Shown: positions 44,718 through 48,874 of the stretch, piece after piece
How positions within the stretch are numbered: position 1 is the first letter of the stretch
Layout of the letters: each line of letters opens with the position of its first letter
NCBI RefSeq assembly: GCF_001654455.1
Contig: NZ_CP015772.1
Location: 3,224,001 to 3,288,000, forward strand
DNA: 64,000 nt
DNA from: Niabella ginsenosidivorans
GTDB taxonomy: Bacteria > Bacteroidota > Bacteroidia > Chitinophagales > Chitinophagaceae
Direction of reading: 5' to 3'
Made by a program: the position numbers and the translations under genes
The notes under the pieces: model-generated
Database searches by the model: none
What the model was told of the DNA's origin: nothing
The model's input: only the letters and a program-made list of their open reading frames with translations

Positions 44718-44725
44718 TAACTTTG
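44691..44725 (+). promoter_or_regulatory. Probable promoter of the met operon leader
   Basis: A -7 box TAACTTTG (44718-44725) matches TAnnTTTG, and a TTG-containing -33 candidate lies at 44691-44694. Spacing is slightly long (23 bp). It lies about 58 bp before the SAM riboswitch. Confidence 0.5.
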
Positions 44726-44783
44726 CGGCGGTCCGCCGGCCGGCGGTCAGGGTTCTTTAAAATTTTCCCGTTACTAACGGGAT

Positions 44784-44896
44784 CTTATCAAGAAAGGCAG
44801 AGGGTTTGGCCCAATGAAGCCTTGGCAACCTGCAAAAGATCATTGAGCAAGGTGCCAATTCCAACCAGTCCGTCAGTTGGCGGATGGAGAGATAAG
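44784..44896 (+). promoter_or_regulatory. SAM-I (S-box) riboswitch
   Basis: The P1 helix is CTTATC (44784-44789) with GATAAG (44891-44896). The conserved core is present: the kink-turn region AGAAAGGCAGAGGG, TTGGCCCAATGAAGCC, TTGGCAACC and AGGTGCCAATTCC. Binding of S-adenosylmethionine stabilises P1 and favours the downstream terminator. The 3' P1 strand GATAAG can alternatively pair with TTTATC (44942-44947) in the terminator loop, providing the antiterminator. It controls the metY-metX-hom operon. Confidence 0.95.
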
Positions 44897-44930
44897 TCAG
44901 TCAGCTATTAAATAAGGTATTTACAATAAG

Positions 44931-44961
44931 AGCTCATCTGGTTTATCGGGTGGGCTTTTTT
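44931..44961 (+). terminator. SAM-riboswitch terminator
   Basis: The stem AGCTCATC (44931-44938) pairs with GGTGGGCT (44949-44956), including G-U pairs, and is followed by six T (44956-44961). It is the expression platform of the SAM-I riboswitch. Confidence 0.8.
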
Positions 44962-44999
44962 GCGGACAACACCGGCTTCCTGTTATAATTTTTTTTGAA

Positions 45000-45113
45000 A
45001 TGAAACAAAACGCTACTAACTTCGTTGTCCTCATGAAACAAATGACAACAAGATCAATTACTGTTCATTGCATTACTTCTGTAATGTGTTGTTGCATTTG
45101 CTGTATGCCTTAG
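45000..45113 (+). CDS. Cys-rich leader peptide (probable cysteine-responsive attenuator)
   Basis: A 37-codon frame from ATG 45000, or 26 codons from the in-frame ATG 45033, ends at TAG 45111-45113. Its last codons encode VMCCCICCMP, five cysteines in six positions, with another Cys upstream (VHC). Such a cluster is expected to stall ribosomes when Cys-tRNA is scarce. The stop codon lies in the loop of a hairpin (45104-45121), and two mutually exclusive hairpins follow. It sits between the SAM riboswitch terminator and metY, whose product makes homocysteine. No known leader is recognised; the role is inferred. Confidence 0.6.
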   Translation: MKQNATNFVVLMKQMTTRSITVHCITSVMCCCICCMP

Positions 45114-45158
45114 CAGGCATATACAATTATTTATCCCCGAAACGGGTTGCAGAACCCG
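45104..45158 (+). promoter_or_regulatory. Alternative hairpins after the Cys-rich leader peptide
   Basis: Hairpin 1 pairs TATGCCT (45104-45110) with AGGCATA (45115-45121) and holds the leader stop codon in its loop. Hairpin 2a pairs CCCG (45136-45139) with CGGG (45143-45146). Hairpin 2b pairs CGGGTT (45143-45148) with AACCCG (45153-45158). 2a and 2b share CGGG and exclude one another, as in attenuators. No T-run follows 2b, so control could be translational or Rho-dependent. Confidence 0.5.
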
Positions 45159-45193
45159 GTATACTTTCCAGCTTAATTATCCACTTTATCTAA

Positions 45194-46518
<1,325 letters not shown>

Positions 46519-46571: not shown

Positions 46572-47612
46572 ATGCAACAAAGAACATTTACATATCCGGC
46601 TCCTTTCCAACTGGAAAGCGGGTATATTTTTCATAACCTGCGCCTGGCCTATACAACATATGGGACCATTAACGGGGATCAATCCAATATCATATGGATC
46701 TTTCATGCGCTTACCGCCAACAGCGTTCCGCATGAGTGGTGGCCGGAAATGATCGGGAAAGGAAAGATTTTTGATCCGGCAAAGGATTTTATTATCTGCG
46801 TAAATATGCCCGGCAGTTGTTATGGCAGCAGCAGCCCGCTGGATGTAGATCCTGCTACCGGCAGGCCCTACTATCATGATTTTCCCTTTTTCACGATCCG
46901 TGATATGGCAAGAGCCTACCAGCTTTTGCAAAAAGAACTTGGCATCACCCGGATAAAAATAGGCATTGGCGGCAGCACAGGCGGTCAGCAGTTACTGGAA
47001 TGGGCAGTATTGGATCCGGAGTTATTTGAATACATTATTCCCTTAGCTACCAATGCAATGCATTCTCCGTGGGGCAGGGCGTTCAATGCGTCGCAGCGTT
47101 TTGCTATTGAGGCCGATCAGACCTGGCAGCGCCAATCGGACGATGCAGGATTAAAAGGTATGGAAGTGGCACGGGGCATTGCACTGCTCTCCTACCGGAA
47201 TGCCACGGCTTACAATAAAACACAGTCGGAGCTTACGGATGACCTCCTGGAATCTTTCCGGAGCGAAAGCTATCAGCGCTACCAGGGAACAAAGCTGGCC
47301 GCACGTTTTAATGCATTCAGTTATTATATGCTCAGCAAAAGCATGGACAGCCATAACCTGGGCCGTGGGCGTGGCGGTGTTATAAAAGCGCTGGAATCAA
47401 TAAAAGCAAAAACGCTGGTGCTGGCCCTTGAAGGCGACATCCTGTTTCCGCCGGAAGAGCAGGATTTTATAGCAGAGCACGTCCCTGATGCTATTGTGCG
47501 GCATATTCAATCCGATTACGGGCACGATGGTTTCCTGCTGGAATTTGAACAGATTACTGAAGCAATCAAAAAATTTATAACCCGTCACGCTGAAGGGGTG
47601 ACAATAAAATAA
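46572..47612 (+). CDS. metX: Homoserine O-acetyltransferase
   Basis: A 346-residue alpha/beta-hydrolase that transfers acetyl from acetyl-CoA to homoserine, giving the substrate of MetY. Motifs: ALTANSVPHEWW (oxyanion region), the nucleophile elbow GIGGSTGGQQ (Ser about 138), the catalytic Asp in LEGDILFPP and His in DYGHDGFL. The length is near the family norm. It starts 53 bp after metY, and homoserine dehydrogenase begins 5 bp after its stop, so the three form one operon under the SAM/Cys leader. Confidence 0.95.
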   Translation: MQQRTFTYPAPFQLESGYIFHNLRLAYTTYGTINGDQSNIIWIFHALTANSVPHEWWPEMIGKGKIFDPAKDFIICVNMPGSCYGSSSPLDVDPATGRPYYHDFPFFTIRDMARAYQLLQKELGITRIKIGIGGSTGGQQLLEWAVLDPELFEYIIPLATNAMHSPWGRAFNASQRFAIEADQTWQRQSDDAGLKGMEVARGIALLSYRNATAYNKTQSELTDDLLESFRSESYQRYQGTKLAARFNAFSYYMLSKSMDSHNLGRGRGGVIKALESIKAKTLVLALEGDILFPPEEQDFIAEHVPDAIVRHIQSDYGHDGFLLEFEQITEAIKKFITRHAEGVTIK

Positions 47613-47617
47613 AAATA

Positions 47618-48874
47618 ATGAGCGAACATAAAGAGCTGGTGATCGGCTTATTCGGATTTGGTGTTGTAGGCGAAGGGCTTTATAAGGTATTGCAGCAAAC
47701 ACCGTCATTAAAGGCGGTGATCAAAAAAGTGTGTATCAAACACCCGGGCAAAAAACGGAACGCGCCTGAAGACCTTTTTACAACCGACCGCAATGCTTTA
47801 TTAAATGACAGGGAGATCAACCTGATCGTAGAAGTAATTGATGATGCAAAAGCCGGTTTTGAGATTGTGAGCACGGCTTTAAAAAACGGGAAGGACGTGG
47901 TGAGCTCTTCCAAGAAGATGATCGCTGAAAACCTGAAAGAGCTGCTGAGGCTTCAGCAGGAAACAGGTGGCTCCCTGCTATATGAATCCTCGGCCTGCGC
48001 CTCCATACCGGTGATCCGTAACCTGGAGGAATATTATGATAATGACCTGCTGCACAGCATCCGCGGTATTATAAACGGCAGCACTAATTTCATCCTCACA
48101 AAAATCTTTGAAGAGCATCTTGCTTTTAAAGATGCGCTGCTGCTGGCCCAGCAGTTAGGATTCGCGGAAAGTGATCCTACGCTGGATGTTGAAGGGATAG
48201 ACGCCTTGAACAAATTAACGATCCTGCTGCTGCATGCCTACGGGATCCTGGTACGCCCGGAACAGCTCCTGTTCAACGGCATCCAGAACATTGCCAAATC
48301 CGATGCACAGGTTGCCCGGTCGCGCGGCCAGCAGATCAAGCTGGTGGCACAGGCCCAGAAACTGATCAATGGCGGTGTGGGCGCTTATGTATTGCCCCAG
48401 TTTGTGGCCCCGGAAAGCCCGCTGGCTTTTGTAAAAAATGAATACAACGGCGTGGTCATTGAAAGCGGCTTTGCAGATCAGCAGTTCTTTTACGGTAAAG
48501 GCGCAGGCAGCTTTCCTACAGCTTCTGCGGTGTTAAGTGATATTTCGGCGCTGCGCTACTCCTACCGTTATGAATATAAGAAGCTGTACCATCACAAGCC
48601 GCACCAGCTCAATGACGACATTTACCTTAAGGTGTTTGTAAGCTTTACAGACCTGGCCTATATTCCCAAAGAGGCATTTGAATGGATTGAAGAATGGCAC
48701 GCACAGGAAAGCCGCAAATATTTATCAGGTGTTATTGCACTGCAAAAACTAAAAGAGCAATCCTGGTGGAAAGAGAACGGCACTTCTTTAATTGTGGAAG
48801 CCGATGGCATTATTGAGGACATTGAAGAGCGCAAGCTGAAAAAGAAGAGTCTGGAACTGGCGGGGCTGCTGTAA
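47618..48874 (+). CDS. hom: Homoserine dehydrogenase
   Basis: A 418-residue NAD(P)-dependent enzyme reducing aspartate semialdehyde to homoserine, the precursor of methionine and threonine. The N-terminal dinucleotide motif GLFGFGVVGEGLY (about 9-21), KDVVSSSKKMIAEN, the catalytic-domain signature GIINGSTNFILT and ESDPTLDVEGIDALNKL are all present. A C-terminal ACT-like extension follows the catalytic domain. It is the last gene of the met operon; the next gene is convergent. Confidence 0.95.
   Translation: MSEHKELVIGLFGFGVVGEGLYKVLQQTPSLKAVIKKVCIKHPGKKRNAPEDLFTTDRNALLNDREINLIVEVIDDAKAGFEIVSTALKNGKDVVSSSKKMIAENLKELLRLQQETGGSLLYESSACASIPVIRNLEEYYDNDLLHSIRGIINGSTNFILTKIFEEHLAFKDALLLAQQLGFAESDPTLDVEGIDALNKLTILLLHAYGILVRPEQLLFNGIQNIAKSDAQVARSRGQQIKLVAQAQKLINGGVGAYVLPQFVAPESPLAFVKNEYNGVVIESGFADQQFFYGKGAGSFPTASAVLSDISALRYSYRYEYKKLYHHKPHQLNDDIYLKVFVSFTDLAYIPKEAFEWIEEWHAQESRKYLSGVIALQKLKEQSWWKENGTSLIVEADGIIEDIEERKLKKKSLELAGLL

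Follow-up and report, generated by a model that had tools for sequence, protein, structure and literature searches.

The metY-metX-hom operon of Niabella ginsenosidivorans is likely to be controlled by two RNA sensors: a SAM-I OFF switch on a transcript from an upstream promoter (promoter P1) and, on a transcript from a second promoter (P2), a leader peptide that would sense Cys-tRNA, with shortage of cysteine raising metY expression. The combination of SAM-I and a Cys-codon attenuator is a real and conserved two-sensor leader; in the window – the whole stretch of 64,000 nucleotides analysed here, from a genome comprising a single contig of 5.63 Mb – the sensors are split rather than stacked. 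Their order is SAM-I riboswitch and terminator (44782-44960), a short ORF ending MCCCICCMP, a hairpin around its stop codon, and the operon. The arrangement, with similar pairs in many relatives, suggests that the cell gauges its supply of methionine as well as that of cysteine before drawing on the operon. A gene is ordinarily assumed to have either a riboswitch or a leader peptide: this operon is preceded by both a SAM-I aptamer and a Cys leader, and the pair exists in a fused and a split version, which opens to test the way in which the signals for methionine and cysteine are integrated at the step of homocysteine. The features are as follows.

44718-44725, + strand: candidate -7 box (TAACTTTG) of promoter P1 for the SAM-I transcript, by eye
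44782-44898, + strand: SAM-I (S box) riboswitch aptamer (RF00162, 79.3 bits against a gathering score of 44.4, E 2.8e-18)
44891-44947, + strand: candidate antiterminator helix of 10 bp, 44891-44900 with 44938-44947 (duplex including 4 further pairs, -12.5 kcal/mol)
44928-44960, + strand: intrinsic terminator of the SAM-I switch, stem 44928-44959 plus U run (-16.5 kcal/mol, z -4.94, equalled by 0 of 200 shuffles)
44994-45024, + strand: P2 promoter pattern, -33 TTTG at 44994-44997, 19 nt, -7 box TAACTTCG at 45017-45024 (predicted start about 45029)
45033-45113, + strand: Cys-codon leader ORF of 26 aa, MKQMTTRSITVHCITSVMCCCICCMP (ORF list; frame and codon statistics in relatives)
45087-45104, + strand: Cys run TGT TGT TGC ATT TGC TGT (CCCICC), frame-specific and TGY-only in relatives
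45102-45123, + strand: hairpin 1, 9 pairs, loop TAGC, beginning at the last Cys codon (computed fold)
45136-45146, + strand: hairpin 2a (CCCG AAA CGGG), 45136-45139 with 45143-45146, by eye
45143-45158, + strand: hairpin 2b (CGGGTT GCAG AACCCG), 6 pairs, weak U tail (computed fold)
45209-46518, + strand: metY, O-acetylhomoserine sulfhydrylase (TIGR01326, 571 bits against a cut-off of 495.1)
46572-47612, + strand: metX-like homoserine O-acetyltransferase (TIGR01392, E 4e-98, below its cut-off)
47618-48874, + strand: homoserine dehydrogenase (NF004976, 302 bits against 205)

The SAM-I element scores above the curated covariance cut-off and its expression platform is coupled to the aptamer's P1 helix, which upholds the riboswitch with terminator given in the preliminary description. 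The candidate antiterminator is mutually exclusive with both the P1 helix and the terminator. Since it pairs the 3' strand of the P1 helix with the inner part of the terminator, and since the terminator is strong, the element is predicted to be a transcriptional OFF switch. At candidate promoter P1 a good -33 TTTG at the usual spacing is absent. Between its -7 box and the aptamer lies a GC-rich palindrome (gtccgccggccggcggtc, 44731-44748), and a weakly related stretch occurs in the P4 arm of the aptamer (inverted repeat 44732-44751/44865-44884, 70%). The genome has a second SAM-I (L001:1501-1611; G000:C1:3090221-3090331), followed by a hairpin and U run (by eye) and preceding a cystathionine gamma-synthase/lyase-like gene; no Cys leader was seen there.

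Profile matches to metY, the MetX-like gene and homoserine dehydrogenase place these elements upstream of a sulfhydrylase operon, as had been proposed; MetY matches as a member of the OAH/OAS sulfhydrylase family. In the assembly the metY ORF is split (45209-45355, then 45385-46518): a single frameshift in a short T run near 45337-45355 breaks the gene, and internal stops are absent from the other MetY sequences among the matches listed. In two respects the layout matches an amino-acid leader-peptide attenuator: a short ORF with conserved Cys codons and, downstream, metY, a gene of the sulfhydrylase family.

According to our hypothesis, sensor one would be the transcriptional SAM-I OFF switch behind promoter P1, and sensor two a leader peptide, on an almost leaderless P2 transcript, that senses Cys-tRNA. 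When Cys-tRNA is ample the ribosome would pass the Cys codons and leave at the stop codon, which lies within hairpin 1 or directly behind it, and metY would be low; when Cys-tRNA is scarce it would stall on the Cys run and metY expression would go up. The low state would come from premature termination – at hairpin 2b, or by Rho in the spacer – and not from reduced translation of metY. Computation shows the SAM-I switch together with its terminator and antiterminator, a Cys leader conserved in frame, the P2 pattern and hairpin 1; we infer the remainder: translation of the leader and stalling, the rise in expression on stalling, and termination as the source of the low state.

The sign of the response could also be the reverse, with stalling at the Cys codons lowering metY so that, when cysteine is short, scarce sulfide goes to cysteine and not to homocysteine. 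The folds leave the sign unfixed – judging from the geometry, a ribosome halted at the first Cys codons could have hairpin 1 form ahead of it, whereas one at the stop would melt it – and the SAM-I above the operon marks it as belonging to the methionine path. MetY, however, can feed reverse transsulfuration, and its family includes cysteine synthases. Moreover, the authors of uORFC-8-2, a Cys-codon attenuator of cysS in Rhodobacterales, presume read-through on stalling in the accessible text of their report (PMC8632094). Opposite polarity is thus rather unlikely, and we retain the reading in which shortage of cysteine raises metY.

How the two sensors relate depends on the sequence between them. 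Promoters of Bacteroidota are characterised by TAnnTTTG at -7 and TTTG at -33 (PMC7366714, in its available sections), the -7 box covering -12 to -5 (PMC9723704, likewise), and from that position the start near 45029 is derived. The short ORF of the leader follows the SAM-I switch by about 70 nt. It can be read as 45000-45113 (+), but since the in-frame ATG at 45000 sits within P2, the likelier start is the ATG at 45033, 8 nt beyond the P2 box, which gives a predicted 5' UTR of about 4 nt (elsewhere box and ATG are 5-25 nt apart). The full -33/-7 pattern, ending no more than 25 nt before the leader ATG, is present in 39 of 52 leader loci from 16 genera, against 0-2 of 52 at twelve other offsets. 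A looser -7 box (TAnnTT[TCA][GA]) within 35 nt upstream of the ATG occurs in 50 of the 52 (shuffle mean 7.1), and at other offsets in 0-5 of 52, except for 12 of 52 at the farthest, 280 nt upstream; the strict TAnnTTTG occurs near the ATG in 23 of 52 (shuffle mean 0.8). The order SAM-I core, U-tract, leader ATG holds in 33 of the 34 family loci with both sensors, where core and U-tract (70-314 nt upstream of the leader ATG) were recognised by text patterns without a hairpin test.

With P2 situated downstream of the SAM-I terminator and upstream of the leader ATG, the leader is probably near-leaderless and in part independent of SAM: it would be expressed from P2 independently of SAM, with read-through from promoter P1 probably added when SAM is low. 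The preliminary description had stacked the leader behind SAM-I and derived an AND-like logic of SAM and cysteine. Given a promoter pattern that separates the sensors, the leader is not stacked in that sense, a strict SAM AND Cys gate is unsupported in the window, and neither the window nor its relatives appear to carry a two-input tandem on one RNA free of an intervening promoter. By eye, many family loci have at P2 a near-palindrome like CTACTAAATTTGTAG surrounding the -7 box, which is seen also in L006, L008 and L012, upstream of metY genes at which neither leader nor SAM-I was found; it may be an operator or mere promoter sequence.

Hairpin 1 holds the leader's stop codon (TAG, 45111-45113) in its loop, and hairpins 2a and 2b overlap at 45143-45146 and are mutually exclusive; on both points the preliminary description was right. 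Support for the hairpins is their conservation and not their fold energy. Folded alone, the segment 45084-45128 with hairpin 1 is no more stable than its shuffles (z -0.94, 34 of 200 as good), and hairpin 2b alone showed a slight excess of stability (z -1.46, 15 of 200). Among 80 family loci selected by Cys alone (at least 3 in 6), a hairpin of at least 5 pairs starts between -3 and +6 nt from the last Cys codon in 67 (shuffles, mean 17.6), and one of -5 kcal/mol or better stands at the same place in 65 (shuffles, mean 2.4, maximum 6), with a GUAA or GCAA loop in 44 of the 65. When the hairpin 1 pairs are projected onto an alignment of 44 rows, most of them chosen beforehand by the hairpin motif, 90.9% of cells are paired; sliding the pairs along lowers this to 18.5-42.5%. 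The covariance analysis that had been called for gave a divided answer: hairpin 1 is conserved, but covariation is slight, with double changes in 2 of 7 pairs, a figure reached by 144 of 500 shuffles; it is thin because the sequence is nearly fixed.

A further set of 57 loci was chosen by a regular expression for the hairpin, and hairpin counts on it are biased for that reason. A perfect second hairpin is present in 35 of these 57 and almost never in shuffles (mean hairpin-2 figures score loci without a perfect stem as 0), and at least 5 U in the 9 nt after it in 12 of the 57, the window included: 2b is not a conserved U-tailed terminator. Since hairpin 1 (45102-45123) shares no base with 2a/2b (45136-45158), direct switching between 2a and 2b by hairpin 1 is impossible, and with a U-rich tail in just 12 of 57 relatives the proposal that hairpin 1 selects 2a or 2b is unsupported. 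No classical 1:2/2:3/3:4 attenuator switch is visible among the window's hairpins. Between the leader and metY the RNA has few G (9.9% G and 23.1% C; 12.6% and 23.2% in the window; 14.1% and 18.9% in 15 loci with SAM-I only): a G-poor, pyrimidine-rich spacer would suit Rho, which is no proof.

These results bear on the version of events first put forward, a single serial transcript forming a SAM AND Cys gate in which hairpin 1 chooses between 2a and 2b. An RNA reading through from promoter P1 would indeed traverse the leader, and a fused series order occurs in other Bacteroidota; yet the P2 pattern separates the sensors in window and relatives alike, hairpin 1 and 2a/2b have no common base, and an alternative pairing (45103-45109 with 45158-45164) was not seen by eye among the genus relatives listed. 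We consider this version improbable, and proceed with two sensors on partly separate transcripts.

Other pairings were tried and rejected. Pairing of the Cys codons with the downstream spacer appeared in single folds, but the window class is at chance (mean z 0.03, 2 of 57 with a shuffle fraction ≤0.05; control segment, mean z -0.08, 4 loci), and in the fused class (26 loci) the signal is unspecific (mean z -0.72, 7 at ≤0.05; control -0.58, 6), although by eye a UGUUGCUG/CAGCAACA stem is common to several loci of Cytophagales. The 5' end of the RNA (GUAGAGUA) can pair with UACUCUAC downstream of hairpin 1, strikingly so in a few loci, but the overall mean z is -0.26 (4 of 50 at ≤0.05, permutation p 0.06). 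Shuffles were single-base for counts of the Cys run, the second hairpin, 5'-end pairing and hairpin 1/ATG, and dinucleotide for anti-Cys and early-codon pairing.

The leader was compared in 121 Chitinophagaceae metY upstream regions: the window plus 120 others. Of 394 genomes 175 have a MetY match, and the 120 regions come from these, being for the most part the first entries listed and thus a non-random choice. That the short ORF ends in CCCICC, as first described, is confirmed (45087-45104), and the Cys-codon leader is not chance. A stretch of 6 codons with at least 4 Cys, ahead of a stop and within the 185 nt next to metY that were analysed, is found in 69 of the 121 regions, compared to 8 in antisense, 0 in a same-size stretch further upstream and a mean of 0.1 in shuffles (n=20); antisense matches may reflect CAACA-rich early leader codons. 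In a second set, 78 of 80 public metY loci (at two the metY ATG was not called, and these were left out), Cys runs number 36 in sense, 0 in antisense and 0 in shuffled sequence. Across the 57 hairpin-motif loci there are 4.67 Cys per 10 codons in frame vs 0.40 and 0.67 in the other frames, and the last six codons of the run (342 codons) comprise 185 TGT, 57 TGC, no TGA and one TGG. Reading in frame, an ATG without an intervening stop is present 51-75 nt upstream of hairpin 1 in 52 of the 57 (shuffles, mean 1.9, maximum 8), and in 46 of the 52 it stands 21-24 codons from the last Cys; the overall range, 19-26 codons, is partly set by the search, since starts were sought only in that interval of 51-75 nt.

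Early leader residues are variable (position table), the number of Cys also varies between loci, and codon changes within genera are 122 non-synonymous vs 65 synonymous. Constraint is apparent only in the Cys run, in where it sits and in the length of the leader. Variable early residues and a non-synonymous excess imply that selection keeps the Cys run at a fixed place, which fits a codon sensor and not a working peptide. A product in its own right, for example a small peptide binding metal or thiol with no attenuation in cis, would account for the Cys run being the best conserved part of the peptide; against it are the unconserved early residues, the varying number of Cys, a run that adjoins hairpin 1 just upstream of metY and a fused class in which the start codon is tied to the SAM-I aptamer, so that a working peptide is very improbable. 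Pairing of the CAACA-rich early codons with the Cys codons (mean z -0.83, 11 of 52 at ≤0.05, permutation p 0.003, uncorrected for kinship) is a lead only. Searching the window's own genome for DNA encoding CCCxCC returned 11 places including the window leader. A DNA pattern for Cys-Cys-Met-Pro plus hairpin matched in 95 of 394 genomes, with one control match; 10 of 30 matches retrieved are at listed metY places and 20 are not tied to leaders, because of which the 95 is not usable as a count of leaders.

Nine of ten genomes of the window's genus, the window included, have SAM-I (text pattern) together with the Cys leader, and the Cys cluster with its stop-in-loop hairpin beside SAM-I ahead of metY is conserved in relatives. 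Loss in a close relative had been named as grounds for rejection: the leader is kept in those nine, but in G309 (locus L003) SAM-I adjoins metY and the entire leader block is missing. A chance meeting of a Cys-rich frame and unrelated hairpins with an ordinary SAM-I is scarcely credible, for although L003, the closest public relative by MetY identity, is without leader, the Cys-run counts in both sets (69 of 121 vs 0.1 in shuffles; 36 of 78), the TGY-only codons and the fixed place by hairpin 1 refute it as far as the sequence claim goes. Over the 121 regions, module counts – approximate, because SAM-I was recognised here by text pattern, rather than by covariance model or, as in the 80 public loci, by Rfam – are as follows: 37 regions have a leader and a far SAM-I, 15 a near SAM-I but no leader, 14 a far SAM-I but no leader, 32 a leader with SAM-I not found and 23 neither, and none has a leader together with a near SAM-I. 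A near SAM-I leaves little space for a leader. SAM-I and Cys leader come and go separately, and the evolutionary dismantling of the composite (fused, split, leader only, SAM-I only) becomes open to test.

Each part has known counterparts. The aptamer, terminator and antiterminator ahead of methionine genes are those of SAM-I (S box, RF00162) elsewhere; the differences are that a second, separate sensor follows here, and that in Cytophagales and Mucilaginibacter the aptamer abuts the start of the leader ORF and not the enzyme gene. In Salmonella mgtA/mgtCBR, sensing of an ion or nucleotide is combined with a leader peptide, so that a metabolite or ion signal and leader translation likewise meet on one RNA; there the codons are for proline and the signals Mg2+/ATP, not Cys codons and SAM. 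Cys-run leaders have been predicted in mycobacteria, Propionibacterium and Bifidobacterium (PMC1262725, accessible text), and the leaderless polycysteine sORFs of mycobacteria (Canestrari 2020) are given as translation attenuation in M. smegmatis in the available part of PMC13236596. These sORFs share with the present leader a Cys run by the stop, a leaderless or near-leaderless start (here predicted) and a downstream sulfur operon, and the mycobacterial cases are likewise described, in the portion of PMC1262725 at hand, as lacking a conserved classical terminator. The leader analysed here differs in phylum, in the conserved hairpin 1 after the Cys run, in the SAM-I alongside and in its gene, metY and not a cys operon or cbs. 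The uORFC-8-2 attenuator resembles it in having Cys codons in a uORF and adjoining hairpins, but has two tandem Cys codons inside the first stem, a 3' U run and an aminoacyl-tRNA synthetase gene, and a riboswitch is unmentioned in the accessible text (PMC8632094). In Sinorhizobium metA a SAM riboswitch immediately precedes an early AUG, and another terminator lies ahead of the start that is used; the riboswitch is, however, a SAM-II, the early AUG is in the gene's frame, and no run of amino-acid codons is reported in the sections available (PMC9373788). Closer in phylogeny, leader-peptide attenuation has been suggested for amino-acid operons of Flavobacterium psychrophilum (PMC9723704), in the main text of which metY, SAM riboswitch, sulfhydrylase and methionine have 0 mentions and cysteine one, on a protease; leader peptides have been suggested also in B. 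thetaiotaomicron (PMC7366714, available sections). In the open literature covered by our search, outside which lay most subscription papers, preprints and supplements, no description of a Cys leader combined with a SAM riboswitch was identified.

Nor is the combination confined to this group: Cys-run leaders are found in many Bacteroidota, the carriers including Chryseolinea, Cyclobacteriaceae MAGs, Pontibacter, Rufibacter, Thermonema and Mucilaginibacter. Those of Cytophagales and Mucilaginibacter mostly begin 5-10 nt downstream of the SAM-I aptamer. Of 80 named metY loci 67 have an Rfam SAM-I somewhere, and 51 have one within 340 nt of metY; in 43 of the 51 the first ATG follows the aptamer by 5-10 nt (by exactly 9 in 24). 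A window of 6 codons holds 3 or more Cys in 27 of those 43 ORFs and 2 or more in 35, and 4 of the ORFs are without any Cys. At one locus of the 43 or more (L019) SAM-I has its own terminator, and the ATG is probably placed there by chance. Bacteroidota are generally without Shine-Dalgarno signals, and the fused form makes testable how SAM-I could act on a start codon lacking such a sequence.

A gap of 5-10 nt leaves no room for an intervening promoter, and since the P1 stem ends mostly that far before the leader ATG, SAM probably gates translation of the leader in these fused sensors. Each locus has its own extension of the outer P1 pairs in the direction of the ATG (29 loci, permutation p 0.0004, uncorrected for kinship). 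In Flavobacterium, structure upstream of the start and an A at -3 influence initiation (PMC6847099, in the text available); together with a SAM-I stem that would cover the region before the start, this leads to the reading of the fused form as a gate. The wider proposal, to which we attach an even chance, is that many Bacteroidota metY genes have a composite sensor in which SAM-I would control the start codon of a Cys leader about 9 nt downstream and not the enzyme gene – SAM deciding whether the leader is translated, Cys-tRNA where the ribosome stops – and that Chitinophagaceae, the window included, have been re-wired, SAM-I acquiring its own terminator and the leader its own promoter, such that a gate in series became two partly independent inputs.

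Variants of this layout were seen among the named loci. In Algoriphagus/Cyclobacterium (L029, L030, L032, L035, L036, L042, L046, L047) the ATG lies 7-9 nt after SAM-I and the leaders are mostly without a Cys run, with a few Cys in L029 and L046. Five Cytophagales loci (L025, L026, L037, L044, L066), in which no Rfam family but SAM-I reached its gathering threshold, have a common structured element of the type CUAGC..UCUGCC-loop-GUGACAGG..GGCUA between the leader stop and metY. In Spirosoma (L049, L058) very short leaders ending CMPAGAY or CMPQAGWPVGAY directly follow SAM-I; they have one or two Cys codons and a TGT-ATG-CC hairpin that by eye resembles hairpin 1.
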